A stretch of 39,491 nt of DNA from Bacillota bacterium (GTDB lineage Bacteria > Bacillota > Limnochordia > DTU080): the NCBI GenBank assembly GCA_012840225.1, contig DULU01000001.1, forward strand, positions 1-39,491. The letters are read 5' to 3'. Both the position numbers and the translations under genes were made by a program. The notes below the pieces were generated by a model. That model did not search any database and was not told where the DNA came from. It was given only the letters and a program-made list of their open reading frames with translations. Positions 2,383 through 38,261 of this stretch are shown here, piece after piece (positions within the stretch are counted from its first letter, which is position 1; every line of letters begins with the position of its first letter).

Positions 2383-2997
2383 CTAGCTCAGCAGGGCTTC
2401 CCAGACGGAGTGGTGGGGGTTGGGCAGAAGCTGAACAGTGCATATACCGCCGTTGCTGGTGATGGCGCTTTCGGCAGCTTTGAGGGCGGTCTCGACAGCG
2501 GTCACTGTACCTGTAAGATAAGCTATCCCTTTTCCGGCGAGGCCTTGAGCCAAGCGCAGATCGATCACTTCGACGGGAGCTGCTTTAACCGCAGCGTCGG
2601 CGCCGTTGATGGCCCCGGCGGCGGTGAAGGTTTCTATTATGCCCAGCGCCCCGCCCTTTTTCATATGCGGGTCGGGACCTCTGAAGGCCTGGAGGACGGC
2701 GGTGGAAATCCGGCCTAATACGCCGCCGTCGATTAAGCAGCCGGCGCATACCTGCTCCGCCCGGCGATATGCCTCATGGACGGCGGCCAACTCGCCGGTG
2801 AAGATTAACAGAAACTTCCCGGGACAAATAGTGTCCCCTTTTAGCAACTTGGTGGGTGAGGTTTTTAATATGGCGTCGGCGGCAGCGAAGCCGGCGGCGG
2901 GCCCGGACAATTCCAGCAAACCCAGGGCTATATGCTTAGATTCGGATTTAGCCATAGTATTAGTATTGGTTTTGGCTTCAGCTTTAGCTTCAGTCAC
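2383..2997 (-). CDS. BMC-T shell protein, PduT-like with Cys pore
   Basis: A tandem BMC-domain (pseudohexameric trimer) shell protein. The first BMC domain spans about residues 22-105 and the second about 115-203. It keeps the TICPGKF motif (Cys58), which in PduT provides the Cys ligand for a [4Fe-4S] cluster at the trimer three-fold axis, so it probably conducts electrons across the shell. The GTG start at 2997 overlaps the stop of the pduS-like gene by 8 nt, so translation is coupled. About 20 N-terminal residues (Thr/Glu/Ala/Lys/Asn-rich, simple-sequence) precede the first domain and are absent from typical PduT. ATG at 2955 is an alternative start but lacks a ribosome binding site. This is the last gene of the minus-strand shell operon. 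Confidence 0.9.
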   Translation of the reverse strand: MTEAKAEAKTNTNTMAKSESKHIALGLLELSGPAAGFAAADAILKTSPTKLLKGDTICPGKFLLIFTGELAAVHEAYRRAEQVCAGCLIDGGVLGRISTAVLQAFRGPDPHMKKGGALGIIETFTAAGAINGADAAVKAAPVEVIDLRLAQGLAGKGIAYLTGTVTAVETALKAAESAITSNGGICTVQLLPNPHHSVWEALLS

Positions 2998-4414
2998 GGC
3001 TGATCACCACTTCCCCTGCGGCATTGATCGCAGTGACCTTGCCGCTGATGCTGGCATGATGGCGGGCACCAAGCGCTCCGGACGGGATCTCCGCCACCAC
3101 CCGACCGCGCTCCACCTGCTCACCTACCTGGACTACCGGTGTAGCCGGCGCCCCGGCATTCTGTTTGAGAGGGATGCGCACCTCCGCAGGCCGGAGCAGT
3201 AGATCCAGATCTTCGACCAGCGGGGCGGCGACATCATAAGCAGTCAACCCCAACCGCCAGATCAGCCGGCTGGTAGGCACCCTGTGTTCGGCTATGGCCG
3301 ACCTGGGGGTGTCGGCGTCATGGTGCGGATTTTTCACCCCAGCCGCTGCCAGCCTATTTTTGACCGTTTTATATAACAGCCTTGGCGACAGGCTGGCTGT
3401 ACAGGCAAAATGCTCGCATACGCCGCATTCGCTGCACAGGAAGGCGGTGGTCCAGGCAGTGGTGTCCCCTATCAAGCCGTAACCCGCCGCCCGCATCATC
3501 ATATGCGGCGCCAGGCTGTGTCCCAGTAAATATCTTGGGCATAAATCCGTACACTGTCGGCACTGGCAGCAGGAGGACGCCGCCCGGCTGAAAGCGGCTG
3601 TGGCCGGCTGCTTCATCTTCCGCACCAAGGGATGATCTCCCGGCAAGACGATCAGGCCTTTGGTCAGTTTACTAACCGGAGTATCCAAGGTGGCCAGGAG
3701 GCTGCCCATCATCGGCCCGCCGTGGATTATGGCTACATTATTGGTAGTATTATCGCCATCGCCATCGCCATGGCCAACATGGCTGCCATCATCACCGTCT
3801 GCGGATATGCCGCCGGCGGCCTTTATCAACTCCCGCACCGGGGTCCCGATGGCGGCTCGCACCGTGATGGGCTGCCGTACCGCTCCCGTCACCGTCACAT
3901 AGGTGTCGACCACCGGGACCCCTTTGACAGCCTGGTGTATGTTCCACAAGGTCTCCACATTGACCACGACGGCTCCCACATGTAAAGGCAGCCCTCCTTC
4001 CGGCACTGCCTTTCCGGTCACCTCATATACCAGGAGCTGTTCGTCGCCGGCAGGATAATAATCTCCTAAGATGGCAAGCTGAATGGGGTTGGGTGGAGAT
4101 GTGGACATGGAGGCTGAGGCAATGGCGGCGGAGAGGGCCTCACATGCGGCTTGATTCTTCTTTTTGACGGCGAAGACCCCTCTTTTGGCACCGATGGTCG
4201 ATACGCACAAGGCCAAAGTCTCCACCAACTCGGCGGCGTGCATTTTGATCAGCTCCTGATCTACCCGGAGAAGAGGCTCGCACTCCGCCCCGTTGACTAT
4301 GACGGTATCCAGGTTGCCCCGCACGTCGAGCTTGACATGGGTGGGAAAGCCGGCGCCTCCCGCACCCACCACACCTGCCTGCCTTACGACCTCAATCAAA
4401 CTTCGCAAATCCAT
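2990..4414 (-). CDS. PduS/RnfC-like flavo-iron-sulfur oxidoreductase
   Basis: 474 residues, RnfC-like. The N-terminal half carries the Gly-rich nucleotide-binding region (VGAGGAGFPTH at about 14-26) and an NGAECEP motif (41-47). An SLBB-like segment follows. Two ferredoxin motifs are visible: C282-x2-C285-x2-C288-x3-CP292 and C327-x2-C330-x2-C333-x4-C338. In the Pdu system PduS oxidises NADH and reduces cobalamin, and it partners with PduT. Here no B12 enzyme is in the window, so electron export or NAD+ regeneration is a more likely role (inference). A 24-residue Gly/Asp/His-rich insertion (about 204-227) interrupts the conserved core. The gene lies 35 nt after pduL and overlaps the downstream PduT-like gene. 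Confidence 0.88.
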   Translation of the reverse strand: MDLRSLIEVVRQAGVVGAGGAGFPTHVKLDVRGNLDTVIVNGAECEPLLRVDQELIKMHAAELVETLALCVSTIGAKRGVFAVKKKNQAACEALSAAIASASMSTSPPNPIQLAILGDYYPAGDEQLLVYEVTGKAVPEGGLPLHVGAVVVNVETLWNIHQAVKGVPVVDTYVTVTGAVRQPITVRAAIGTPVRELIKAAGGISADGDDGSHVGHGDGDGDNTTNNVAIIHGGPMMGSLLATLDTPVSKLTKGLIVLPGDHPLVRKMKQPATAAFSRAASSCCQCRQCTDLCPRYLLGHSLAPHMMMRAAGYGLIGDTTAWTTAFLCSECGVCEHFACTASLSPRLLYKTVKNRLAAAGVKNPHHDADTPRSAIAEHRVPTSRLIWRLGLTAYDVAAPLVEDLDLLLRPAEVRIPLKQNAGAPATPVVQVGEQVERGRVVAEIPSGALGARHHASISGKVTAINAAGEVVISRD

Positions 4415-4449: not shown

Positions 4450-5133
4450 TTACCGGGCTGGGGGAATGACGATCCGGGCCGCGGCACCGCAGGTAATCCC
4501 GGCGGCATTGGCATCATCGGTATCCAGATGCATGTTCAGGACCCAGCCTTCCTTCACCCGCACCTGCACCTGATGGAACACCAGGCTTTTCTCGCCGGTC
4601 ACTTCCACCGACACTAGGTCTTGATCCTTTACCCCGAACCGCCCGGCGTCGGCAGGAGACATGTGTATGTGCCTGTTGGCGATGATACAACCTTGGGGTA
4701 AGGAGAGAACCCCCTTCGGCCCGATCAGCGTGATCGGTGCTGAACCGGCCAGATCACCGGAACAACGGACCGGCGGATTAAGGCCTAGCACAACAGCGTC
4801 GGTGCGGGCTATCTCTACCTGGGTCTCCTTGCGGCATGGGCCGAGAATACGCACGTTTTCAATCGTGCGCATGCGGGGGCCGACCAACGCCACCACTTCC
4901 TCGGCGGCGAATTCTCCCGGTTGCAATAGATTCCGCTGCACGGTTAGGGTGTGACCGGGGCCATAGAGCAGTTCCAGGTGTTCGGCAGTTATATGAACAT
5001 GCCTGACCGATACACCTACCGGTATTTCCAGGGGATCACGTTCCGCCCTGTACCGCTCAAGCAGCTTGCTCATTACCCTGGCTGATATTTCCTCTATCAG
5101 CCGGTTTTCATCTACTCTCACTCCCACTCCCAC
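4450..5133 (-). CDS. pduL: Phosphate propanoyltransferase PduL (BMC phosphotransacylase)
   Basis: It converts acyl-CoA plus phosphate to acyl-phosphate inside the compartment and so recycles CoA. The likely substrate here is lactyl-CoA. The Zn-binding His motifs are present: VRHVH (H45, H47), NRHIH (H155, H157) and MHLDTDDAN (H202). Residues about 8-30 form a predicted amphipathic helix before a short linker, matching the N-terminal encapsulation peptide seen in PduL. Length (about 227 residues) is normal. GTG codons at 5133, 5127 and 5121 in a GGGAGT repeat are all possible starts. It sits between the BMC-H pair and the pduS-like gene. Confidence 0.93.
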   Translation of the reverse strand: MGVGVRVDENRLIEEISARVMSKLLERYRAERDPLEIPVGVSVRHVHITAEHLELLYGPGHTLTVQRNLLQPGEFAAEEVVALVGPRMRTIENVRILGPCRKETQVEIARTDAVVLGLNPPVRCSGDLAGSAPITLIGPKGVLSLPQGCIIANRHIHMSPADAGRFGVKDQDLVSVEVTGEKSLVFHQVQVRVKEGWVLNMHLDTDDANAAGITCGAAARIVIPPAR

Positions 5134-5171: not shown

Positions 5172-5450
5172 CTACTTCTCATCCTTAAAGAACACTTCGG
5201 CAGTGCTGTTGTCCGGACGAGGAATGATGTGCTGGCTGATAACTTCGCCAACCCGGCCGGCTGCCGCACTGCCGGCATCCACAGCCGCCCTGACGGCACC
5301 CACATCTCCGCTCACGATGACGCAGACCAAGCCGCTACCTACTTTTTCATATCCCACCAGGCGGACGTTAGCCGCTTTCACCATGGCGTCGGCGGCCTCG
5401 ATAGCTGCTACCAAACCTTTGGTTTCAATAAAACCCAATGCCTCTCCCAT
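5172..5450 (-). CDS. BMC-H hexameric shell protein (PduA/PduJ-like), copy 2
   Basis: 92 residues covering one complete BMC domain. It begins with [12 protein letters not shown], has the [11 protein letters not shown] segment and the pore-loop motif KVGSGL, and ends with HIIPRP. The hexamer forms flat shell facets and the Gly-Ser pore passes small polar metabolites such as lactaldehyde or propanediol (family knowledge). It is about 80% identical by eye to the BMC-H 57 nt upstream in the operon, which points to tandem duplication. The C-terminal tail is acidic and diverges from the other copy. The ribosome binding site is weak (AGGTG). Confidence 0.96.
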
Positions 5451-5506: not shown

Positions 5507-5779
5507 TTACTTGTTCAAAAAGCATTTTTCGATATCGGCGTGGGGGCGAGGAATGATATGGGCAGCCACTACTTCGCCCACCCTTTGCGCTGCGGCGGCT
5601 CCGGCTTCTACGGCCGCTTTTACTGCTCCGACATCGCTCCTCACCATCACGCATACCAAGCCGCTACCTATCTTTTCATAACCGATCAGGCGGACGTTGG
5701 CCGCTTTCACCATGGCGTCGGCGGCTTCCACCGCTGCCGTCAATCCTCTGGTCTCCACCAATCCCAATGCTTCTCCCAT
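5507..5779 (-). CDS. BMC-H hexameric shell protein (PduA/PduJ-like), copy 1
   Basis: 90 residues, a single BMC domain with pore-loop motif KIGSGL and the conserved HIIPRPH end. It is preceded by a strong AGGAGG ribosome binding site, stronger than that of its duplicate downstream, so it may be the more abundant facet protein (inference). The tail after the domain (about residues 80-90) contains a Cys and Lys and differs from that of copy 2. It is transcribed after the three pentamer genes and before the second hexamer gene. Confidence 0.96.
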
Positions 5780-5809: not shown

Positions 5810-6160
5810 TTACTTCACCGTGTGTTGCGGCTGCGATTTAGTCATATATTGGTTTGTGTCCTCTTCCCTGTCGACAATGGCCATCACCCAGGTGCTGATG
5901 GGAGCCCGGTCCAATCCGTAAGAGGCGCCCAATCCAGGGGGACCGCCCGCTATCACTACATCTCCAGGTCCGGCGCCGACGCAATCGACAGCCAGATTAT
6001 ATTCTTTGCCCCCGGTGCCGGAGCCGGCAGCACCCCCGCCGCCCGCTCCGCCGCCGCCCTCGAGGGAAGAGAGCGGTTTGATGAGGAGCAACGCCTTGCC
6101 GGTCAGGGATTCATGCTTTATGGAGCAGACAACCGGAGCTATCACTTTTGCCAGAAACAA
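5810..6160 (-). CDS. EutN/CcmL pentameric vertex protein, copy 3
   Basis: A BMC-P protein that caps shell vertices. The TTG start at 6160 gives MFLAKVIAPVVCS, which matches the family N-terminus and the sister protein at 6829; GGGGTG lies about 7 nt upstream. An upstream ATG at 6247 would add 29 residues with no family match and overlap the previous gene. The domain includes LTGKALLLIKPL, a DCVGAGPGDVVIAGG core and a C-terminal VDRE segment. Odd feature: a Gly/Ala-only insertion of about 15 residues (nt about 6010-6062) replaces the short loop after the second strand. About 116 residues, longer than the usual 85-100 because of this insertion. Confidence 0.88.
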   Translation of the reverse strand: MFLAKVIAPVVCSIKHESLTGKALLLIKPLSSLEGGGGAGGGGAAGSGTGGKEYNLAVDCVGAGPGDVVIAGGPPGLGASYGLDRAPISTWVMAIVDREEDTNQYMTKSQPQHTVK

Positions 6161-6230
6161 GCTATACACCCCGCAATGGGAACCGGACGACCTATAGAAC
6201 TCCCGCTCCGTCCCGGCGCCAACTACCTCA

Positions 6231-6530
6231 CTATCCTTCCATCGCACTCGCCATCAGCAGCTGCTGGATGGAGCTTTCATCAACTATGCCGATGATGCTG
6301 GCGTCGACCGGCACACCGTCCCTGGCGAAAGCCAGGGGAGCATCGCCTTTATGCACCACCACCACCGTGTCGCCCCGCCCGGCCTGGCCGGTACCGTCGG
6401 CGGCGATATATAAAGGTCCATCGGCTCTCAAGGCGGCATCCAAAGGCTGCATAACCATGAGCTTGATCCCCTGCAGAGCCGCCTCTTTTTGCACACAGAC
6501 CACTGTGCCTACCACTCGGGCTATTTTCAT
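6231..6530 (-). CDS. EutN/CcmL pentameric vertex protein, copy 2
   Basis: 99 residues, one BMC-P domain. It starts MKIARVVGTVVCVQK, contains GIKLMVMQPLD, a GTGQAGRGDTVVVV core and an IIGIVDE end. The ATG overlaps the stop of the preceding pentamer gene (ATGA at 6527-6530), so translation is coupled. Together with copies 1 and 3 it gives three diverged BMC-P proteins, as in several aldolase-type loci. The three are clearly paralogous but not recent copies. Confidence 0.93.
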   Translation of the reverse strand: MKIARVVGTVVCVQKEAALQGIKLMVMQPLDAALRADGPLYIAADGTGQAGRGDTVVVVHKGDAPLAFARDGVPVDASIIGIVDESSIQQLLMASAMEG

Positions 6531-6829
6531 AGGCCGGCATTCCCCTTATATACCATCCGGCCCGCCACTTCCACATTATCGACAATGGCCACGATGGTGG
6601 CATCGGTAGGAGCGCTGCGAGTAAGGGTGGTGTTGCGGGCGGAGCTGCCGGTGACCACCATAACCACGCTGCCTTCGCCGGCACCTACGCTGTCCACGGC
6701 AATCAGGGGTTTCCCTTCAGGCTGTAAGGTCTCCACATTCACAGGCTGCACGACGAGCATTTTCAGCCCGACGAGGTTTTTGTCTTTCTGCGTGGATACC
6801 ATTGATCCTAATACCTTTGCCAGGAACAC
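6527..6829 (-). CDS. EutN/CcmL pentameric vertex protein, copy 1
   Basis: About 100 residues, BMC-P fold: MFLAKVLGSMVSTQK at the start, GLKMLVVQPVN, a SVGAGEGSVVMVV core and a VAIVDNVEV end. GTG at 6829 is preferred because it gives the same MFLAKV start as copy 3 and has GGGGGAA about 7 nt upstream; a TTG three bases earlier (6832) is also open. It lies 27 nt after the PduT-like trimer gene and has a 4-nt overlap with the next pentamer gene. Confidence 0.93.
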   Translation of the reverse strand: MFLAKVLGSMVSTQKDKNLVGLKMLVVQPVNVETLQPEGKPLIAVDSVGAGEGSVVMVVTGSSARNTTLTRSAPTDATIVAIVDNVEVAGRMVYKGNAGL

Positions 6830-6855
6830 CAATCTTCCCCCTCATATTTCTACAC

Positions 6856-7521
6856 CTACACCAGAGCCCACAATTCCGGATGGGGATGCGGGATGATGCG
6901 CAGGTCGGCCAGCATGTCGCCTATACTTTTCATGGCGGCCTGTCCGGCTTCCCGCAGATCGGCCACCTTGCCGCCGGCGACGATCAGTCCCTTGCCGCTC
7001 AAGCCCGAAGCCATCCTGATGCGCAGCAGGGTGATGGAGGCTGCCTTAGCCATGGCATCCGCCGCTTCCAGCACCGAGGCAACACTGTAGGTCTCCACAA
7101 GAGCCAGCCCGCAGTCCATATAGTTTGGGGAGAGCGGGGTTACTCCTGTCATGGCCGGCCACAGGCTGTTGTGCACCGCCGGCAAAAAGAGGCTGGTGAT
7201 CAGCATCCCGCCGGCTTCACCTGTCTGGTCGGTTGCCGTGGCCTCTGTCATTGTCATTGCCTCAGCCTTTACCTCTGCATCTGTAATCGCCTTGGCGGCT
7301 GCAATGGCCGTCTGCACGGCAGCAGCACTTCCATATATAAATAAAAGCATTTTGCCGGGGCAGACAAACCTGCCGTATGTTTCCCGGAGCGGCGCGCTTT
7401 TCGCCGCCAGATCAAGCAGCCGACACCCAAATGCCTCTCCCTTCACTTCCAGCAGACCCAGGGCGTCGGCGGCTTTTCTCTTTGTTTGTGGTTGTGCGGC
7501 ATCCGCATCCATCATGATCAT
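6856..7521 (-). CDS. BMC-T shell protein, second PduT-like trimer with Cys pore
   Basis: A tandem BMC-domain protein of about 221 residues. The first domain (about 18-125) has the FVCPGKM motif with Cys54 at the position of the PduT cluster ligand. The second domain (about 133-220) starts CGLALVETYS and ends IIPHPHPELWAL. The first domain carries an insertion of about 25 residues rich in Ala/Glu/Thr/Met (nt about 7205-7285) between two strands, encoded by short imperfect repeats. It is only distantly similar to the trimer at 2383-2997, so this is an old duplication. It starts 6 nt after the upstream stop; ATGs at 7521, 7515 and 7512 are all possible. Confidence 0.9.
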   Translation of the reverse strand: MIMMDADAAQPQTKRKAADALGLLEVKGEAFGCRLLDLAAKSAPLRETYGRFVCPGKMLLFIYGSAAAVQTAIAAAKAITDAEVKAEAMTMTEATATDQTGEAGGMLITSLFLPAVHNSLWPAMTGVTPLSPNYMDCGLALVETYSVASVLEAADAMAKAASITLLRIRMASGLSGKGLIVAGGKVADLREAGQAAMKSIGDMLADLRIIPHPHPELWALV

Positions 7522-7527
7522 AATGCC

Positions 7528-8520
7528 TCACAACAAGTTCTTCTCGGCCAGCACTTCACATACGGCTTCGGCCACTATCAGCGCCAGTTCCTCTTCGGAG
7601 AGGCGGCTTATTATCTGCGACACGGCTTCGATTTGTGCGGAGGGCAGTGAGCCGCCGCTTTTGGTACACCGGCCGCATTCATTACAATCCCGATCCCGGA
7701 CGGGCCGGCTTTTCCCGCCGGCAAATATGCTGTTGCCGACATAGCCGCCGATGGTGTATAGGCTGCCGGCCGGGGCGATACCACCTTGGCCGTCTTGGTC
7801 AGCTTGGCGAGGTTGGCTAGGTTGGCCGCCTTGGCCGATCCGGCAGGTTTGGCAAGTTGCTCCCAAGCCCGCCGGCGCCGGCGCTGCCGCCGAAACCGCC
7901 GGTGCCGCCGAAGAGGTTGGAGCGGCGGAAGTGGCCGAAGCCACCGCAGCGGCGGAAGCGGCAGCTAGACTCTCCGAGCTGAGAAACAGCCCGGCCCTGC
8001 TGCTGTATAAACCTGATATATCCGGCTTTATCTGCACCTTCAGCTCCTCCAGCTTCTCCGGAGTAATGGAGTCAAGGGCGTCGGCTGCAACGACGAGCAC
8101 CTTATAGCCGCCATATTCCACTGTCTGCCAGGATCCGGCTCCCAGGGAGCGGCTCAGGCGGTCAAGCTGCTCATCCACTTCCGGGGCGGCCTGAAAGACC
8201 GCTGTCACGGCCGGACCCAATGCTCTATATAATGCCAGATGGGCAGGTAAAACAGGAGTGGGTTTCCCACCGCCAATTAAGGTCCCATCTTTGATGCGCA
8301 CCTTCACCAGGTCCGACACCCGGAGCTTCTCCAGATCGGTGGCGGAGGCCGACGTGCACAAGATGAGCCCTTCATCCAGTTTGGCCGAAAGGCTGCCCTT
8401 CTTGAATGCGGGTTGCCTCGCTGCCAATTGTCCTGCACATTTGACCATATCCCGGCGCAGGGCCGGCTCCAGCTGCAGCATATAAATACGATCACCCGGT
8501 TCAAAGCCAACTCGACTCAA
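7528..8520 (-). CDS. Degenerate class II aldolase-like BMC protein with Cys-rich linker and C-terminal helix
   Basis: First gene of the shell operon. Residues about 20-170 follow the class II aldolase/adducin pattern of the intact aldolase at 8758-9549 (KGSLSAKLDEGL..., PAHLALYRAL...). However, the catalytic Glu motif SSE is TPV (88-90), the metal motif HAH is QAA (110-112), and the third-His motif NHG aligns with AAD (146-148). A long Ala/Ser/Pro linker (about 185-220) leads to CxxC (C223, C226), a Gly/Gln-rich stretch, then C279-x2-C282-x2-C285. The last 35 residues form an amphipathic helix sharing LSEEEL with the tail of the real aldolase, so it is probably encapsulated. The TTG start has GGAGAAG 9 nt upstream. 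Aldolase activity is unlikely; a scaffold or redox role is possible. Confidence 0.7.
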   Translation of the reverse strand: MSRVGFEPGDRIYMLQLEPALRRDMVKCAGQLAARQPAFKKGSLSAKLDEGLILCTSASATDLEKLRVSDLVKVRIKDGTLIGGGKPTPVLPAHLALYRALGPAVTAVFQAAPEVDEQLDRLSRSLGAGSWQTVEYGGYKVLVVAADALDSITPEKLEELKVQIKPDISGLYSSRAGLFLSSESLAAASAAAVASATSAAPTSSAAPAVSAAAPAPAGLGATCQTCRIGQGGQPSQPRQADQDGQGGIAPAGSLYTIGGYVGNSIFAGGKSRPVRDRDCNECGRCTKSGGSLPSAQIEAVSQIISRLSEEELALIVAEAVCEVLAEKNLL

Positions 8521-8757: not shown

Positions 8758-9549
8758 ATGCAGTCTGAATTTCAATTGCGCAAGGATATTTGTGAAGTGG
8801 GCCGCCGTATATGGACGCGTGGCTTTGTAGCCGCCAACGACGGCAACATCTCTGTCCGCCTCGCTGACGGAAACTTCCTCACCACGCCCACAGGGGTGAG
8901 CAAGGGGTTTATGACACCTGATATGATCATCAAGGTGAACAGCGCCGGGCAGAAGATTGCCGGTGATCTGAAACCCTCTTCCGAGCTGAAAATGCATATG
9001 GCGGTCTACCAGATGAGACCTGATGTGGGCGCTGTGGTGCATGCTCACCCGCCGGTGGCTACCGGCTTCGCCGTCGCCGGCATACCCATCAACAAACCGA
9101 TCATTCCCGAAGTGGTAATAAGTTTGGGTTGGATCCCCGTGGCTAAATATGGCACGCCGTCCACCGACGAGTTGCCGGCGGCGATAAAAGAATTTCTTGG
9201 CTGCCATGACGGTCTCCTGTTGGAGAACCATGGGGCGCTTACCGTGGGTACCGATCTGTTTAATGCTTATTTCAAAATGGAGACCATCGAGCTGGCGGCC
9301 CAGATCAGCCTGGCGGCCCGGCAGTTGGGCGGCGAGCGGGAGATCAGCCCGGAGAACGTGCAGAAGCTGATGGAGGTCCGGCAAAAACTGTCCGTCAAGG
9401 GCAGCCACCCGGCCCTGGACCCGAGCTGCGACATTAGTTCCCTGGGAATCGGCGGCGGCAAAGTGGCCAACCTCAGCGAAGAAGAGCTGGTGCGTTTGAT
9501 TACCAAGATAACCACGGAAGTTTTGCGGTATAAAGCCGCCCAGTCATAA
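8758..9549 (+). CDS. Class II aldolase, fuculose/rhamnulose-1-phosphate type, BMC-targeted
   Basis: It cleaves a 6-deoxyketohexose 1-phosphate to DHAP and lactaldehyde (family role). The active-site set is complete: GNIS (29-32), TPTGVSKG, Glu76 in SSEL, metal ligands His95 and His97 in HAHP, and His158 in ENHGAL. After the catalytic domain (about 1-215) a Gly-rich linker leads to an amphipathic helix at 238-258 that begins LSEEEL, a likely C-terminal encapsulation peptide. Strong GGAGG ribosome binding site. First gene of the plus operon, followed 28 nt later by the aldehyde dehydrogenase. Whether the substrate is rhamnulose-1-P or fuculose-1-P is inferred from the adjacent rhamnulokinase. 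Confidence 0.9.
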   Translation: MQSEFQLRKDICEVGRRIWTRGFVAANDGNISVRLADGNFLTTPTGVSKGFMTPDMIIKVNSAGQKIAGDLKPSSELKMHMAVYQMRPDVGAVVHAHPPVATGFAVAGIPINKPIIPEVVISLGWIPVAKYGTPSTDELPAAIKEFLGCHDGLLLENHGALTVGTDLFNAYFKMETIELAAQISLAARQLGGEREISPENVQKLMEVRQKLSVKGSHPALDPSCDISSLGIGGGKVANLSEEELVRLITKITTEVLRYKAAQS

Positions 9550-9577: not shown

Positions 9578-11011
9578 ATGGATGAAAAACAAATTGCCCA
9601 GATAGTAGCCCAGGTGGTAGCCAGGTTGGCGGAAAGCAAGCAGCAGGCACAGGCATCGGCACCGGCTTCGGCACCGCCCGCCACCGCCCCCACTGCCGTG
9701 GGACGGGGGATTTATCGGAGTGTGAACGAGGCGGCGGAGAGGGCGGCCAAAGCCCAGAAAATATTAGCCGCCATGAGCCTTGACGAGCGGGAGCGCCTGA
9801 TAGATGCCATAAGGCAGACCGCCATCGCCCATGCCGAGGAGCTGGCCGGAATGGCCGTCACCGAAACCGGCCTCGGGCGCTATGAAGATAAAATAGTGAA
9901 AAACAAAAATGCCGCCCGGCTCACTCCGGGGACGGAGGATTTGCCGCGCCACTTTATTTCCGGGGCGCAAGGCTCCACCCTCACCGTGGGCGCTCCTTAT
10001 GGGGTGATCTGCAGCGTTCTGCCGGCCACCCACCCCACGGCCATCGTCATCAATCACGCCATCATCATGATCGCCGGGGGCAATGCCATGTTCGCCTGCC
10101 CTCATCCGAGAGCCGCCAACAGCTCCCGCTATACCATCAGCTTGCTCAACCAGGCCATCACGGCGGCCGGTGGGCCTGAAGACCTACTTGTCGCCCTGGA
10201 TAGAGTCAGCATGGATCTTGTGGCCGAAGTGATGGCTCACCCGCTGGTGGCCATGGTGACTGTGGCCGGCGGACCGGCAGCGGTGAGGGCAGCGCTCACC
10301 TGCGGGAAGAGAGCGGTGGCCGCCGGTCCGGGTAATCCCCCGGTGCTGGTAGACGACACCGCCGATCCGGCCAAAGCTGCCCGGGATATTGTCAATGGGG
10401 CGGTATTCGACAACAACATCCTTTGCATAGCCGAAAAAGTGGTCTTCGCCACACCGGGCATCTACGACGCCCTGCTGATGGAGATGAAGAAAGCCGGCTG
10501 CTATCTCGCCAATGCCCAGGAAGCCGAAGCCATCACCAGGCTGGTGGTCAAAGACGGCCACATCAACGGGGAATTCGTCGGCAAAGATGCCGCCGTTATA
10601 CTAAAGGCAGCTGGCATCGCTGTTCCCGGCCCGGCGGCGGTGCGTGGAGTGGTGTTCGCCGCACCGTTCACCCATCCGCTGGTTAAGATCGAGCAGATGA
10701 TGCCCGTGCTGCCGGTGGTGAAAGTGGATAATTTCGAGCAGGGTATGGCCCTGGCCAAAGAAGCGGAGTGCGGCTTCAGGCACACGGCGCTGATCCACAG
10801 CAACAATATAGAACATATCGATGCTTATATTAAAACCATGAGCACTTCCATCGTCGTGGTAAACGGCCCTTGTTATGCCGGGCTGGGCATCGACGGAGCG
10901 GCTGTGTTTACCCACACCGTGGCCAGCACCACCGGGGAAGGTGTATGCACACCCCGCACCTTTACCAAGCAATCCAACGCCACCTACTGCGGCTGTTTGA
11001 CCAAATATTAA
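9578..11011 (+). CDS. CoA-acylating aldehyde dehydrogenase (PduP/EutE-like), BMC-targeted
   Basis: It oxidises an aldehyde, here probably lactaldehyde, to acyl-CoA with NAD+. Residues 2-20 form an amphipathic helix followed by an Ala/Pro/Ser linker (21-42), the classic N-terminal encapsulation peptide arrangement. The catalytic domain has the cofactor region SVLPATHPT (about 146-154) and the nucleophile Cys283 in DNNILCIAEK. The C-terminus CTPRTFTK is typical of the PduP/EutE branch. 477 residues, normal length with the tag. It lies 28 nt after the aldolase gene and 32 nt before the LarA-like gene, so one operon. Confidence 0.94.
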   Translation: MDEKQIAQIVAQVVARLAESKQQAQASAPASAPPATAPTAVGRGIYRSVNEAAERAAKAQKILAAMSLDERERLIDAIRQTAIAHAEELAGMAVTETGLGRYEDKIVKNKNAARLTPGTEDLPRHFISGAQGSTLTVGAPYGVICSVLPATHPTAIVINHAIIMIAGGNAMFACPHPRAANSSRYTISLLNQAITAAGGPEDLLVALDRVSMDLVAEVMAHPLVAMVTVAGGPAAVRAALTCGKRAVAAGPGNPPVLVDDTADPAKAARDIVNGAVFDNNILCIAEKVVFATPGIYDALLMEMKKAGCYLANAQEAEAITRLVVKDGHINGEFVGKDAAVILKAAGIAVPGPAAVRGVVFAAPFTHPLVKIEQMMPVLPVVKVDNFEQGMALAKEAECGFRHTALIHSNNIEHIDAYIKTMSTSIVVVNGPCYAGLGIDGAAVFTHTVASTTGEGVCTPRTFTKQSNATYCGCLTKY

Positions 11012-11043
11012 CCGGTATGATATGAGCGGGAGTGAGTTACAGC

Positions 11044-12327
11044 ATGTTGGTAAATCTGGCGTATGACCGCGGCTGGCTGCCGCTGGAGGCTCCGCCGCAG
11101 GCGGTGGTGATCGAGCCCCGCTATAGCCCACCTCTGCCTTCTCCCCTCGCCGCCCTGCGGGAAGCATTGGCTCACCCCATCGGCACCAAGCCCTTGGCGG
11201 AGATCCTGAAACCCTGGCATAAAGTGACCATAGTGCACTGCGACGGCACCAGAGCCATGCCCAACGCCCTGGTGATAGCGGCGCTCTCCGAAGTCCTGGC
11301 GGCGGCAGGCATCCCCGACTCTCAAATTACACTGCTTAACGCCCTCGGCACCCACCGCCGGAACACCCCGGAAGAACTGGAGGCATTGCTGGGTGCGGAG
11401 GCAATAAAGCGGTATAGGTGCGAGCAAGCGGTAGCCGCCGACACCGACGCCCACGTGCCGGTGGGCCAACTGCCGGACAATACCCCCGTTAAGCTGCACA
11501 AATGCTATGTCGAAGCCGACATACGCATCCTGCTCGGCTTCATCGAACCGCATTTCTTCGCCGGCTTCAGCGGCGGTCCCAAGCTGATAGCTCCGGGCAT
11601 CTCCTCTCTGGAGACCATCTTCCACCTGCACTCGCCCGCTCTGGTAGGGCATCCCAAGGCCACCTGGGGCATTACTGCCGGAAATCCTTTGTGGGAGACC
11701 TTGCGGGCCGTTGCCGCCCTGGCTCCGCCGACCTTCATCGTCAATGTCGCCTTGAATCGGGACAAGGAAGTGACGGCCGTATTCGCCGGCGACCTGGATC
11801 AGGCTCACCAGGCAGGGATCGCCTATGTGCGGGAGCGTTCCATGTGCCGGGTGCCTCATCTATTCGACATCGTGGTCACCACCAACAGCGGTTTTCCCCT
11901 GGATCAGAATCTATACCAGTCGGTGAAGGGGATGTCGGCCGCCGCCCGCATCGTCAAGCCGGGCGGGGCTATCATCATCGCCGCCGGCTGCGCCGATGGC
12001 ATCCCCAATCACGGAGCCTTTTTCGATATCGTCAGGGAGGGAGGCTCTCCCGACGGTATATTGCAGGTGATCAGCCGGCCGGGCTACCACCGCTGCGACC
12101 AGTGGCAGGCGCAAGTGTTGGCACTGATCAGGAAAAAGGCCAGGATTCTCATCTATACCGCCGGGGTGGATGAAGAGGCGGCGCGGGCGATGATGCTGGA
12201 ACCGATAAGCGACATCGGGCAGGCCATCGACCGGCTGGCCAAGGAAATGGCCGGCGCGGTGGAAAAGGCCTCCATCTGCATCATGCCGGAAGGGCCGCAG
12301 ACCATTCCTTATGTAACAGAATTATGA
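11044..12327 (+). CDS. LarA-like nickel-pincer racemase/epimerase (DUF2088 family)
   Basis: Lactate racemase LarA and its paralogues interconvert 2-hydroxyacid stereoisomers with a Ni-pincer nucleotide bound covalently to a Lys. The key residues of L. plantarum LarA all appear with one constant offset of four: His104 (LGTHR), His170 (EPHFFAGFSGGPK), Lys180 and His196 (FHLHSP). ATG at 11044 is chosen because GGGAG lies 11 nt before it; GTG at 11032 has no site. 427 residues, normal length. No larB, larC or larE cofactor genes are in the window. The position between aldehyde dehydrogenase and rhamnulokinase suggests a lactate, or another 2-hydroxyacid, derived from deoxysugar. Substrate not determinable from sequence. 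Confidence 0.85.
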   Translation: MLVNLAYDRGWLPLEAPPQAVVIEPRYSPPLPSPLAALREALAHPIGTKPLAEILKPWHKVTIVHCDGTRAMPNALVIAALSEVLAAAGIPDSQITLLNALGTHRRNTPEELEALLGAEAIKRYRCEQAVAADTDAHVPVGQLPDNTPVKLHKCYVEADIRILLGFIEPHFFAGFSGGPKLIAPGISSLETIFHLHSPALVGHPKATWGITAGNPLWETLRAVAALAPPTFIVNVALNRDKEVTAVFAGDLDQAHQAGIAYVRERSMCRVPHLFDIVVTTNSGFPLDQNLYQSVKGMSAAARIVKPGGAIIIAAGCADGIPNHGAFFDIVREGGSPDGILQVISRPGYHRCDQWQAQVLALIRKKARILIYTAGVDEEAARAMMLEPISDIGQAIDRLAKEMAGAVEKASICIMPEGPQTIPYVTEL

Positions 12328-12349: not shown

Positions 12350-13882
12350 ATGGGCGGCGGAGCATTTTTGGCGATTGATTTGGGGGCATCCAGCGGGCGG
12401 GCCATTCTGGCGACCATCGACGGCGACGGCCGCGGCCACGGCCCCGGCCACGGCGGGAGCAGCCGGATGCAGCTGGAAGAGGTGCACCGCTTTCCCAACC
12501 AGCCTATCCATCTGCCCGGCGGATATTTCTGGAATGCCCCGCAGATATATGAAGAGATAAAAGCCGGGTTGGCCAAAGGCTTTCAGCTGGCGGCCGCCAA
12601 AGGTTATCCCTTGCTTGGAGCGGGCATCGACACCTGGGGAGTGGACTATGGCCTGATTACCCGCTCAGGTGCTCTTCTGGGCCTGCCGAGGCATTACCGG
12701 GATCCACGCCACGTAACTGTCTACGACCGCATCATGCAGCAGCAGGCACCGGAAGAGATATATATGGAGACGGGCATCCAGTTTATGGCTCTGAACACCC
12801 TCTACCAGCTGCTGGCGGTGCAGGAATTTGAGTCGGGCTTGTTGGAGCTGGCCGACAGCCTGCTGATGATGGGCGCCCTCTTTACCTATTTCCTCACCGG
12901 GGAGCGCCTGAGCGAGGAGACCACGGCCAGCACCACGCAGTTTTTGAATCCATATACCAGGAATTGGTCGGAAACCTTATTAAAGCGTTTCGGGCTGCCG
13001 GCCTCCATTTTGCCGCCAGTCGTGGAACCGGGAAAGGTGGTCGGCCCGCTGCTCAAGAGCGTGGCTGAGGAGATTGGCTGCGGCGGCGGCGGTGACGGCG
13101 GTTTCAAGATCATTCTGCCCGCCGTGCACGACACGGCCTCGGCGGTGGCGGCTGTACCGGCCGAGGGCGAGAGCTGGTGCTATCTGAGCTCAGGGACCTG
13201 GTCGCTCCTAGGGCTGGAGACGGCGGCGCCGGTCATCAACCGCCAGAGCTTGGCCTTTAACATCACCAATGAAGGCGGGGTCTTCGGCACCACCCGGCTG
13301 TTAAAGAATGTTACCGGCCTGTGGATTCTGCAGGAATGCAAAAGGCAGTGGGATGCCGAGGGCGAAACAAGCTGGGATGAATTGATGCGGGAAGCGGCGG
13401 CGGCACCCCCGGCGGGAAGCTGGTTAGATCCCGATCACAGGCTCTTTGCCGCCCCGGGAGATATGATCGGCCGGCTAAAGGAATATTACCGGCAGACCGG
13501 GCAGGAGATGCCGGCTACCCGCGGCAGCCTCACCCGCTCCATCCTGGAGAGTCTGGCGCTGAAATACCGCTATGTGCTCAACCAACTCGAAACCTTGGTA
13601 GGCCGACGCTGCGAAGTGATCCACATTGTCGGCGGCGGCGCCCAAAACGCCCTGCTCAACCAGATGACGGCCGATGCCTCCGGGCGGACGGTGCTCGCCG
13701 GGCCGGTGGAAGCCACAGCCATCGGCAATGCTCTCATGCAAGCCATCGCCCTGAGATGGCTCGACTCCCTGGCCGACGGGCGCTCCCTGGTCAGGCGATC
13801 CTTCCCCGCAGCACAGTATCAGCCCAGGGAGACAGGCCGCTGGGACGAAGTATATGAGACCTTCGTCAAGCTGTTGGGCTGA
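12350..13882 (+). CDS. rhaB: Rhamnulokinase (FGGY kinase)
   Basis: It phosphorylates L-rhamnulose to rhamnulose 1-phosphate, the aldolase substrate. The N-terminal ATPase motif AIDLGASSGRAIL is the rhamnulokinase form, followed by the family's EVHRFPN segment, GIDTWGVDYGL, a PAVHDTASAV motif with the candidate base Asp, and a C-terminal GGGAQN ATP-binding motif. 510 residues, slightly long owing to a Gly/His-rich insertion (nt about 12420-12468) in the first loop and a Gly-rich loop at nt about 13078-13102. AGGAGG precedes the ATG. An alternative deoxyketose such as fuculose cannot be excluded. A rhamnose isomerase gene is not in the window. Confidence 0.9.
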   Translation: MGGGAFLAIDLGASSGRAILATIDGDGRGHGPGHGGSSRMQLEEVHRFPNQPIHLPGGYFWNAPQIYEEIKAGLAKGFQLAAAKGYPLLGAGIDTWGVDYGLITRSGALLGLPRHYRDPRHVTVYDRIMQQQAPEEIYMETGIQFMALNTLYQLLAVQEFESGLLELADSLLMMGALFTYFLTGERLSEETTASTTQFLNPYTRNWSETLLKRFGLPASILPPVVEPGKVVGPLLKSVAEEIGCGGGGDGGFKIILPAVHDTASAVAAVPAEGESWCYLSSGTWSLLGLETAAPVINRQSLAFNITNEGGVFGTTRLLKNVTGLWILQECKRQWDAEGETSWDELMREAAAAPPAGSWLDPDHRLFAAPGDMIGRLKEYYRQTGQEMPATRGSLTRSILESLALKYRYVLNQLETLVGRRCEVIHIVGGGAQNALLNQMTADASGRTVLAGPVEATAIGNALMQAIALRWLDSLADGRSLVRRSFPAAQYQPRETGRWDEVYETFVKLLG

Positions 13883-15869: not shown

Positions 15870-17039
15870 CTAGCTTCCCAACTCCTCGCGAGCTTTGGCG
15901 ATCATTTGTGGTATCTGCAGTTTATATTCGCACCAGGGCAGGCACTCACCGCACTCGATGCATTTTTCGGCATCGGCGGCAAGCTCGGCAAATCGTTCTT
16001 TATATTCAGCCACCTCTTTACCCAGCGCATTTTTGATCAGGTAGCGGGAATATAAAGCCAGAATAGCCGGGAAATCCACTTCTTGCGGACAGCTGAATTT
16101 TTCCACACAATGGAGGCAATCCCGGCATAAATGCCGTAAGTGCGGAGCAATTATATCGGCTTCCTGCTTCAACCTCTCAAGCTGCGCCTGATCGGGACGC
16201 TCCCCAAGCGCCGTTTCCAAATCCTCCCGGAATTCGTGTATATAGCGGGCGCCGGCATCGACGGTGGAAATATAGGGATTAGCCAGGCAGAAGTTGAGCA
16301 TAGCCCGGTGATCGATATCAACACATTCCTGGATGGCGCCGAACACCGGAGCAAGCCCGTTGCCGCCGAAAGCCTTCATATTGATGACGCCCAAGCCCCG
16401 CTCATAGGCATAGGCCAGTAAATTGATCTCCCCGTCCTCTCCCAGAATGCGGTTGAAGATGTTATAAGGCAACTCGACGACTTCAAATACTCCTGTATCG
16501 ATGGCTTCCTTTATCTCTTTCCTACTATAATAATGGCTGGAAAAGCCGGGGATATTGATCAAACCTTCCTCTTTCAGCTCCCGCAGGCGGTCGAGGGCGC
16601 CGGAGGACTTCACCTTAGCCCAGCGCTCTTCATTGATCCCGTGCAGAAAGTAGACCAGTATGATGGGGTTATTACCGATCCGCAATGCGCCCCGGCCGGT
16701 GATGCCGAGCTTCTCCCGGCTGATGCGCAGCTCTTCCTCAAGCTCCGGGACGGTATACCCGTGTCCTTTGGTCACCACGATCAGCGGCTCCTTCAGATCG
16801 GTGCGGCTGCGGATCACCTCTCCCACAATCACTTCGCTTTCCACCGGCTCACCGCTTTTTGTCAGCCCGTTATATGCCCTGGCCGTATCGATCAGGTTTA
16901 TTCCCTGATCGAGGACATAGTTGACCAGTTGGTAGCCTTCTGTCGCATTGTCCAGCAGGCGCAGATTCATGGCGCCGAAGCTCAACTCGGTCACTTGCAA
17001 TCCTGTAGCACCAAATTTTCTTCTTTTCAATTGTTTCAC
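15870..17039 (-). CDS. Aldo/keto reductase with C-terminal ferredoxin domain
   Basis: An AKR barrel (about residues 1-280) followed by a 4Fe-4S domain (about 300-380). The catalytic set is present: Asp and Tyr in LIDTARAYNG, Lys in VVTKGHG and His in VYFLHGIN. The Fe-S motifs are CRDCLHCVEKFSCP and CIECGECLPWC. Such proteins are common in anaerobes and are thought to couple carbonyl/alcohol chemistry to ferredoxin-like electron transfer (inference). The GTG start at 17039 has AAAGGTGG 9 nt upstream. It is monocistronic and transcribed towards the BMC operon end. Confidence 0.9.
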   Translation of the reverse strand: MKQLKRRKFGATGLQVTELSFGAMNLRLLDNATEGYQLVNYVLDQGINLIDTARAYNGLTKSGEPVESEVIVGEVIRSRTDLKEPLIVVTKGHGYTVPELEEELRISREKLGITGRGALRIGNNPIILVYFLHGINEERWAKVKSSGALDRLRELKEEGLINIPGFSSHYYSRKEIKEAIDTGVFEVVELPYNIFNRILGEDGEINLLAYAYERGLGVINMKAFGGNGLAPVFGAIQECVDIDHRAMLNFCLANPYISTVDAGARYIHEFREDLETALGERPDQAQLERLKQEADIIAPHLRHLCRDCLHCVEKFSCPQEVDFPAILALYSRYLIKNALGKEVAEYKERFAELAADAEKCIECGECLPWCEYKLQIPQMIAKAREELGS

Positions 17040-17150: not shown

Positions 17151-17239
17151 GGCAGGATTTATGTTGGGAGGCAGGAAATATCGACGGGCATCAAAACTTA
17201 TCAATATAAATATGGTCCATGGAAAGGTTGCTTTTTGCG

Positions 17240-19429
17240 ATGGCCGGCTCTTCTTTTTTGACTATTGCCCTGGCGCAGATGGAAGTGTTGCCGGGCAGAC
17301 CTGATCTGAACACGGCTAAAATGTTGGCGATGATGAAGAAAGCTCGGTGGGAGGGAGCCCAGATGATAGTCTTCCCGGAAATGGCCATTCCCGGCCGTCT
17401 TCTTGGAGATGTCTGGAAGCAGACGGCTTTCCTGCGTGATTGCGAAGAGTACGGCCGGCAGGTGGTAGCCGCTTCCCGCGAAATCTGCGTGATCTTCGGC
17501 AACGTCGCCGTGGAATGGCAAAAGAAGAATGAAGACGGACAGGTGAGGAAATATAATGCCTGCTTCGTCGCCAAAGACGGCAGCTTGTGCGGCGCTGGCA
17601 GCTGCGGCGACAGCGGGGCTGGCAGCGCTGGCAACTGCGGCACCTGCAACGGCGGCAGTAACAGCGCCGGCAGCCATTTCCCCTACCCCTACCCCTTCCG
17701 TGTCAAGACTGTCCTCGCCACCAACCATGGTTTGGATGAGCGGCGCTATTTTTGCAGCGGACGCTTCCTGGCAGCGGAGTTGGCGCTGCCGGTGGCGAGC
17801 TTGGCGGTACCGGTGGAAGTGGAGATCGGCGGTCGCCTGTGGCGCCTTGGTTGTATGATAGGTAAAGGTGACCTGGATTGTCCAGGTACCGAGGAGGATT
17901 ATCCAGGCGGCATTGATTGTCCAGGTGACCGGGAGAATAATAGCGACAAAGACCCGGCATTGAAAAAGGACGATGTTGATCTATATATCAATATTGCCGG
18001 CCTGCCATTCACTTTGACCGACAGCCGGATGAGACACCGACGCCTCTCCTCCCTCGCCGGGAAATGCGGCAAACCGCTAATCTACCTCAACCATACCGGC
18101 ATCCAAAACTGCGGCAAGACCATCTACGTTTTCGACGGGGCGAGCGCCGTCTTTGACGGGGAGGGGAAGGCTCTCTGCACCTGCCCTTCTTTCCAGGAGA
18201 CTCTGGCTTTCGTCAAATTGTCGCCGTCCGGGGCGCCGGCGGCTCCTGCTACCACCCCGGCGAGCAGCAGCGGTTTGCGTTCCGGCAACCACGCCGCCGG
18301 GAGCGACATCGCCACTGGGAGCGACATCGCCACTGGGAGCGACATCGCCGCCGTCTATGAGGCCCTCACCTACGGCATCGAGCGTTTTATGCGCTCCATC
18401 GGGGTGAGCCGGGTGGTGATCGGCCTGTCGGGAGGGATAGACTCCGCTGTGGCCGCCTGCCTTTATACCCAGGTGCTGGGTCCGGAAAACGTGCTCCTGG
18501 TGAATATGCCCAGTGCATATAATTCGGCCACCACCAAAAATCTGGCCGCCCGCCTGGCGCAAAACCTCGGCACCCTCTATGCCGTAATACCTATCCAGGA
18601 AGCTGTAAACTACACCGTCTCCCAGGTGAACAGCGCCACTATCACCAATCTCTCCACAGGGGCATCCTTCAGCCTGGAGCTCACTCCCTTCATGATCGAA
18701 AATGTCCAGGCGAGGGACCGCTTCAGCCGGATCCTGGCGGCTTTGGCGGCGGCTTTTCACGGCGTGATCAGCTGCAACGGCAACAAATCGGAGCTGACCA
18801 TCGGCTATTCCACCCTCTACGGCGATCTCTGCGGCTTCTTAGCCGTGCTGGCCGACCTCTGGAAACACCAGGTATATGAGCTGGCCACCTACCTGAACGA
18901 CACCGTTTACCGGCAGGAAGTGATTCCCACCGGCATCATAGAGATAGTGCCCAGTGCCGAACTATCCCCGGCGCAGGATGTGGATAAAGGCCTGGGAGAT
19001 CCGCTGGTCTATCCCTATCACGATTTCCTTTTTAAAGCTTTTGTGGGGCAGCCGGAAAAAGCCACCCCGGAAGATATTCTGACCTGGTATTTAGGCGGAG
19101 AACTGGAAAAGCGGATCGGCTGCCGGATAGGTTTAGTGGAGAGTATCTTTAAAACGCCGGCCGCCTTTGTTGCCGACCTGGAACGGTGGTGGCGCTCCTA
19201 TTGCGGTCTGGGGGTGGCCAAACGCCTCCAGGCGCCGCCGGTGCTGGCGGTAAGCGGGCAGGCCTACGGCGGCGACCATCACGAGGCGCAGAATGGCGAA
19301 GCCTATTTCACCTCCCGCTATTATAAATTAAAGGAGCAAATACTGGCATTGGCGGCTCATCCGGCCCACCCGGCACATCCGGCTAACCCGGCTCCTCCCC
19401 TTCCCCTTTCGCACCACCGGGAGAAATAA
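17240..19429 (+). CDS. nadE: Glutamine-dependent-type NAD+ synthetase with unusual glutaminase domain
   Basis: The N-terminal nitrilase-like (glutaminase) domain and C-terminal ATP-dependent synthetase domain make NAD+ from deamido-NAD+. The synthetase has SGGIDSA, NGNKSEL and STLYGDLCG. In the nitrilase domain Glu (FPEMAIPG) and Lys (RVKTVLATN) are present. The expected ICED nucleophile motif instead reads IGKGD and is followed by an insertion with repeated DCPG units, so the Cys seems missing. Other insertions: a Gly/Ser/Cys stretch (nt about 17580-17690), triple GSDIAT before the synthetase domain, and a His-Pro-Ala tail. 730 residues. ATG at 17240 is favoured over 17219. The domain order is certain; glutamine use is doubtful. 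Confidence 0.88.
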   Translation: MAGSSFLTIALAQMEVLPGRPDLNTAKMLAMMKKARWEGAQMIVFPEMAIPGRLLGDVWKQTAFLRDCEEYGRQVVAASREICVIFGNVAVEWQKKNEDGQVRKYNACFVAKDGSLCGAGSCGDSGAGSAGNCGTCNGGSNSAGSHFPYPYPFRVKTVLATNHGLDERRYFCSGRFLAAELALPVASLAVPVEVEIGGRLWRLGCMIGKGDLDCPGTEEDYPGGIDCPGDRENNSDKDPALKKDDVDLYINIAGLPFTLTDSRMRHRRLSSLAGKCGKPLIYLNHTGIQNCGKTIYVFDGASAVFDGEGKALCTCPSFQETLAFVKLSPSGAPAAPATTPASSSGLRSGNHAAGSDIATGSDIATGSDIAAVYEALTYGIERFMRSIGVSRVVIGLSGGIDSAVAACLYTQVLGPENVLLVNMPSAYNSATTKNLAARLAQNLGTLYAVIPIQEAVNYTVSQVNSATITNLSTGASFSLELTPFMIENVQARDRFSRILAALAAAFHGVISCNGNKSELTIGYSTLYGDLCGFLAVLADLWKHQVYELATYLNDTVYRQEVIPTGIIEIVPSAELSPAQDVDKGLGDPLVYPYHDFLFKAFVGQPEKATPEDILTWYLGGELEKRIGCRIGLVESIFKTPAAFVADLERWWRSYCGLGVAKRLQAPPVLAVSGQAYGGDHHEAQNGEAYFTSRYYKLKEQILALAAHPAHPAHPANPAPPLPLSHHREK
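18301..18352 (+). repeat. Three in-frame 18-bp repeats within nadE
   Basis: GAGCGACATCGCCACTGG is present at 18301-18318 and 18319-18336, with a third partial copy at 18337-18352. It encodes repeated Gly-Ser-Asp-Ile-Ala-Thr in the linker between the glutaminase and synthetase domains. Confidence 0.9.
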
Positions 19430-38128: not shown

Positions 38129-38261
38129 AACTTTTTCCTCCAAACCTGATATCCTATTTTACCAACCAACTGTTTCCTTTTATTATTAGCCCACTATAAG
38201 CTCTCGCCGCACATGAGGCATTGGAGCTTTGAGGCTTTGAGGCTTTTGCAGTTTATTTTAC

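Follow-up and report, generated by a model that had tools for sequence, protein, structure and literature searches.

The first gene of the BMC shell operon in the window, a 39,491-nucleotide stretch of Bacillota DNA, encodes a 330-residue protein that is, judged from its alignments, a catalytically dead FucA-type aldolase with its zinc-binding and catalytic residues lost. The best reading, which holds a slight balance of probability, is that this protein is a pseudoenzyme cargo in which a dead aldolase is the carrier of a BMC cargo tail module, CxxCGxC followed by an encapsulation peptide (EP), with a putative metal site. The part that needs explanation is the tail module, because BMC operons also encode 12 working class II aldolases and two PF01116-type aldolases that have such a tail.

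The gene occupies 7528-8520 on the minus strand in the list of open reading frames and diverges from a live class II aldolase gene at 8758-9549 on the plus strand. Its start codon is ambiguous, either TTG at 8520 or ATG at 8481; back-reading of the ortholog protein (L050) would place a GGAGG ahead of the Met aligned with residue 14 of the window protein. A search of the interval between the divergent genes for a consensus promoter or terminator found none. Membership of the class II aldolase/adducin superfamily (PF00596 fold) is assigned from sequence and predicted structure, and the aldolase pattern noticed in the sequence-only reading is supported by Pfam, AlphaFold, and Foldseek. The Pfam Aldolase_II profile (PF00596) matches residues 41-109 above the gathering threshold (E=1.4e-7), and BLASTP aligns the protein with its live neighbor at 29% identity over 103 residues (E=9e-7), with the LSEEEL tail in common. 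AlphaFold, Foldseek, and alignment delimit an aldolase-fold core of residues 14-198 (7927-8481, minus strand). The AlphaFold model, for which the input alignment had four rows, has pLDDT values mostly of 70-87 over residues 21-150 and lower values beyond. Foldseek matches the core to YgbL, FucA, and AraD, with E values down to 1.1e-8 and a target TM of about 0.6; the ortholog, modelled likewise, has a better core with target TM up to 0.74.

Active class II aldolases have a catalytic glutamate and three zinc-binding histidines, a set that is incomplete in both the dead paralogue and its ortholog. In the alignment, the columns of the SSE, HAH, and NHG motifs are occupied in the paralogue by T88-P89-V90, Q110-A111-A112, and R175-A176-G177. 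The changes from SSE to TPV and from HAH to QAA had been recognized from the sequence alone; the proposed change from NHG to AAD was a misalignment, the real counterpart being R175-A176-G177, and the histidine is gone either way. The glutamate and three histidines are also absent from elsewhere in the protein, and the claim of a dead site stands. The ortholog has SSE, HAL, and GLG at these columns, in which the catalytic glutamate and the first histidine are retained and the other two histidines are lost. A different catalytic activity that does not need the zinc site would be compatible with this retention and with the versatility of the fold, for which the Foldseek matches include epimerases, decarboxylases, and oxygenases; the columns nevertheless differ between the orthologs (SSE/HAL/GLG versus TPV/QAA/RAG), unlike a conserved new site, making such an activity quite improbable.

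The core is followed by a low-confidence linker rich in Ala, Ser, Pro, Gly, and Gln at residues 199-278 (7687-7926, minus strand; from pLDDT and alignment), which contains C223 and C226 in the sequence CQTC. The motif CNECGRC (C279, C282, C285; 7666-7686, minus strand) corresponds to the conserved CxxCGxC that is kept in the ortholog. AlphaFold pLDDT is below 50 for residues 199-292, and helices are predicted at 294-305 and 309-326. The second of these, an EP-like C-terminal helix of the LSEEEL type (7543-7596, minus strand), shares its LSEEEL core with the live aldolase. The short terminal helix, the flexible linker, and the BMC operon together form the layout of EP cargo. A helix of this type had also been read from the sequence alone; the amphipathicity that was claimed with it is weak in this copy: the hydrophobic moment is 0.21 (shuffle p=0.29), compared with 0.44 (p=0.05) for the live aldolase and 0.46 (p=0.05) for the aldehyde dehydrogenase of the same locus. 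The cysteines of the dead paralogue are at positions 28, 55, 223, 226, 279, 282, 285, and 321, and about 2 in 10,000 composition-preserving shuffles of the protein yield both a CxxCxxC and a further CxxC.

The single ortholog recovered by whole-genome search comes from the MAG Clostridia bacterium DTU080 (G001; LFTP01000267.1). Searches of genome contigs for further orthologs returned none with a single-protein query and only DTU080 with an alignment query, and a class-wide search of 73 genomes with the tail gave a strong match in the two known dead copies and no third. Only two dead copies are known, both from draft genomes. The ortholog belongs to a different genus and has the same position in the shell operon, first of the shell genes and facing a live aldolase. 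It retains CNACGTCTNSGGSVPSAQ and RLSEEEL and is without the C223/C226 pair, so that the conserved cysteines are the three of CxxCGxC; a conserved site of four or five cysteines that includes C223 and C226 was rejected on this ground. The four-cysteine set of a [4Fe-4S] ferredoxin, typically CxxCxxCxxxC(P), is also not present, as an aligned fourth cysteine is absent in the ortholog alignment. The retention of the CxxCxxC cysteines bears on the sequence-only reading, which would have been contradicted by homologues lacking them.

The tail, CNxCGxCTxSGGSxPSAQ followed by the EP, is 58% identical between the two proteins over the last 54 residues, against about 33% for the aldolase core. Consistently, dN between the window and DTU080 is 0.43 for the tail, 0.78 for the core, and 1.02 for the linker, with dS near saturation. 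In these sequence comparisons the tail is the part of the dead paralogue that selection holds best. A functionless duplicate heading for loss would account for the fast-evolving core, the long branch, the low-complexity linker, and the occurrence in two genomes only. Such decay is very improbable given that the frame is open at the same place in two genera, heading the shell genes in both, and that the tail has 58% identity and a dN far lower than dS. Phylogeny failed to place the dead proteins, whose branch lengths of 10 and 2.4 changes per column make their position in the tree unreliable, and transfer of the motif from a live to a dead copy is for that reason a matter of parsimony only.

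In the window, the dead paralogue heads a minus-strand shell operon that continues with a BMC-T, three BMC-P, two BMC-H, PduL, PduS, and a further BMC-T; its place as first gene, together with PduS (2990-4414) and two CPGK-bearing BMC-T trimers (6856-7521 and 2383-2997), agrees with what had been read from the sequence. Both trimers are PduT-like and have two PF00936 domains, with TIGR02526 matches below cut-off (E=1e-15 for 6856-7521 and E=2.3e-24 for 2383-2997). The BMC-P (EutN/CcmL) genes at 6527-6832 and 6231-6530 match PF03319; the third BMC-P-like frame at 5810-6247, with a real start probably at about 6160, matches the CcmL model below cut-off (E=1.1e-8), and a frame resembling it is the first on the DTU080 contig (G001:C173). 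The BMC-H genes (5507-5779 and 5172-5450) match PF00936, and the PduL phosphotransacylase (4450-5133; PF06130) has an N-terminal EP-like helix by sequence reading. The PduS-like flavin/Fe-S protein contains Complex1_51K, SLBB, Fer4_17, and RnfC_N domains and the Cys motifs CCQCRQCxxLCP and CSECGVC.

On the plus strand, the live class II aldolase (8758-9549; PF00596, E=6.3e-50, supported by alignment and tree) has SSE, HAH, and NHG intact and an EP tail without CxxCGxC (SHPALDPSCDISS). It is followed by an acylating aldehyde dehydrogenase (9578-11011; NF011927 above cut-off) with an N-terminal EP-like helix by sequence reading, a LarA-type lactate racemase homologue (11032-12327; NF033504, 444 bits against a cut-off of 460), and a rhamnulokinase-like kinase (12350-13882; TIGR02627, 443 bits against a cut-off of 528). 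As PF00936 has no match elsewhere in the genome, this is the only BMC locus seen in it. The class II aldolase, acylating aldehyde dehydrogenase, PduL, shell genes, and nearby rhamnose/fucose kinase are those of PVM-like or GRM5-like deoxysugar BMCs; the gene content points to what is probably a sugar-phosphate metabolosome for L-rhamnose or L-fucose. The GRM5 marker genes, glycyl radical propanediol dehydratase and its activase, were not apparent on reading the ORF lists of the window.

The CxxCGxC tail extends to live enzymes of other BMCs. A search of 399 genomes of the phylum for [HN]PGCxxCGxC returned 12 matches, versus two for a backward control, and those inside aldolase frames are live class II aldolases in which the aldolase domain is followed by CxxCGxC and then the EP. 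The presence of CxxC and CxxCxxC in the dead paralogue, reported from the sequence alone, is real, but the description of these cysteines as gained is probably wrong; their new acquisition by the dead protein was abandoned as an explanation once live BMC aldolases with HPGCxxCGxC at the matching place had been found. Pattern and profile searches together identify 12 live-aldolase loci with C-x2-C-x2-C in 11 genomes, seven genera, and five families; 11 have CxxCGxC and one has CHDCEIC, and all 12 lie in a BMC operon that also encodes PduS and a PduT-like BMC-T of the CPGK type. Among 31 aldolases of known setting, the motif is present in 12 and absent from seven of those in BMCs and present in none and absent from 12 of those outside BMCs, where the non-BMC scoring of some neighborhoods rests on short contigs (L079, L120, L121). 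Counted as independent pairs, the association is 3:0, for which the sign test is underpowered (p=0.25). In the window and DTU080, the motif is on the dead paralogue and the live aldolases align without it (HPALDPSC, HPAVTESC), while in the closest live outgroup, G391, it is on the live enzyme.

Some BMCs with PduS and PduT are without the motif (G143 and two related members of the class, G010 and G014), so BMCs can do without CxxCGxC. PduS/PduT are encoded in nearly all BMC loci examined, with or without the motif, and its link to electron transfer is therefore inseparable from its link to BMCs; for the same reason it could not be tied to PduS/PduT rather than to BMCs generally. The class II aldolase BMC of Acetoanaerobium noterae shows no PduS and no motif within the stretch covered, with a PduS-like gene elsewhere in the record. 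The G010 locus (L074; G010:C123) contains two PduS genes, a BMC-T with CPGY rather than CPGK, and a live aldolase with an EP and without CxxCGxC. Two further aldolases were seen apart from shell genes. One (L111:9740-10642; G018:C34) has an EP-like tail in a genome that is 96% complete with zero PF00936 matches, which suggests a relic or detached cargo; the other, the second aldolase of G267 (L124:9494-10249; G267:C1), ends inside the Cys motif (HPGCTGYGG) in a 19-kb stretch in which no shell genes were matched.

A tail of this kind is found on two aldolases of another fold. In the BMC operon of DTU080, a PF01116 (fructose/ketose-bisphosphate) aldolase has CDSCGAC...LSDEEIARMVASVVRGIL at its C terminus (L139:1688-2713; G001:C173), and in G072, a member of another family, a PF01116-type aldolase beside shell genes ends in CQTCGAC...CKSC...ISQEEITKLVSEVLRRL (L171:9493-10539; G072:C91). 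No FucA-type class II aldolase was seen within the BMC stretch covered in G072. Both PF01116-type proteins are apparently BMC cargo. Among the plasmid matches listed for the DTU080 protein, most end with the aldolase domain. Since the same kind of tail is found on the unrelated FucA-type and PF01116 folds, the CxxCGxC-EP tail may have spread as a mobile module or arisen by convergence. Its occurrence on two unrelated aldolase folds and one dead protein separates the role of the tail from catalysis, and encapsulation tails may have roles beyond targeting. Right after the BMC aldehyde dehydrogenase, DTU080 also encodes EtfB, EtfA with an N-terminal ferredoxin-type domain, and a GlcD-type FAD oxidase (L139:7522-7998 and L172:251-2903; G001:C173). 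These genes have a likeness to a lactate dehydrogenase/Etf operon and would fit with lactate production and electron flow around the BMC.

In the pseudoenzyme cargo reading, the FucA-type core would have lost its zinc site and catalysis and become a carrier, probably an oligomeric one, and the EP that follows CxxCGxC would hold it against the lumenal face of the shell. The tail is borne by the live enzyme in sister BMCs and by the dead paralogue in the window/DTU080 family, whose live aldolase is without it. Metal binding is the most likely chemistry of the tail, with an Fe-S site near the PduS/PduT shell path the leading candidate, zinc ranked next, and a disulfide the least likely of the three. 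Fe-S is favored because the motif resembles the opening of the PduS cluster motif CSECGVCxxxAC and because every live-aldolase locus with the motif encodes PduS and PduT-like trimers; against this, nearly all BMC loci examined encode them, and the conserved cysteines number only three.

A more specific and tentative proposal is that CxxCGxC-EP is a portable redox module, grafted onto unrelated aldolase folds, whose linker Fe-S site would act with PduS/PduT in carrying electrons to the shell from NADH in the lumen, and which in the window/DTU080 family is kept on a dead aldolase. A Cys motif in a cargo encapsulation linker addresses the question of how electrons enter and leave metabolosomes, for which PduS and the PduT cluster are known but no lumenal partner is. 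If real, a portable redox module would be an additional kind of BMC Fe-S component, as yet unrecognized, and could be the encapsulated mediator of electrons that a published BMC model invokes as an unconfirmed element (PMC6325248).

The same cysteines could have a purely structural use, in which the dead subunit would either join oligomers of the live aldolase or gather cargo and, as BMCs form, its Cys triad would hold zinc or cross-link tails by disulfides, with no electron transfer. Class II aldolases are oligomeric, which is compatible with mixed assembly, and the three cysteines are in a low-confidence linker. EPs promote shell attachment or core assembly (PMC6325248), and BMCs are known to contain inactive enzyme copies, namely the second aldehyde dehydrogenase of GRM1 loci (PMC4207490) and the N-terminal region of GRM2 GREs (PMC6325248). 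Such a scaffold is less likely than the pseudoenzyme cargo reading but a serious rival to it; the resemblance of CxxCGxC to the PduS cluster motif CSECGVC speaks against it, as does the presence of PduS and PduT-like trimers at 12 of 12 motif-bearing live-aldolase loci, though most loci without the motif have them too. The GRM1 and GRM2 examples are likewise enzyme-derived domains without catalytic residues that have been proposed as scaffolds or organizers; their folds differ from that of the dead paralogue, and a Cys-motif tail is not mentioned for them in the passages covered.

The nearest known relatives of the dead paralogue are the class II aldolases (PF00596) of PVM, PVM-like, GRM5, and ACI BMCs, an EP-bearing member of which is reported for ACI-type compartments (PMC8217296). 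They share with it the fold, the order of core, linker, and C-terminal helix, and the company of aldehyde dehydrogenase, PduL, PduS, and PduT-like genes; the paralogue differs in its lost zinc and catalytic residues, long linker, and diverged core (29% over 103 residues). Its possession of CxxCGxC beside a live neighbor without the motif is a further departure from the class II aldolases of known BMCs. Fe-S shell proteins are known in BMCs (PMC6325248), and PduS, PduT, GrpU, and PduK have Cys motifs that hold or possibly hold clusters at or near the shell, as the dead-paralogue tail may. PduK has a tetracysteine on a C-terminal extension, comparable to the cysteines on the C-terminal tail here. 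PduT, GrpU, and PduK are, however, shell proteins and PduS is a flavoprotein, whereas the dead paralogue is putative soluble cargo with its motif in the EP linker and three conserved cysteines rather than four. Among the papers listed in literature searches, none was evidently on a Cys motif in BMC aldolase tails or on CxxCGxC in EP linkers, an absence that is weak evidence.

Other genes of the window have features of their own. An aldo/keto reductase-like protein at 15870-17039 on the minus strand has C-terminal ferredoxin-type Cys motifs, CRDCLHC and CIECGEC. Genes at 17219-19429, 33122-34654, 36572-38143, and 490-2262 contain low-complexity insertions that derive from tandem DNA repeats. 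Examples, with the genes named by sequence reading, are an 18-bp repeat at 18299-18349 in a NadE-like gene and tandem repeats at 34005-34100 in an enolase-superfamily-like gene and at about 37696-37750 in a GltX-like gene.
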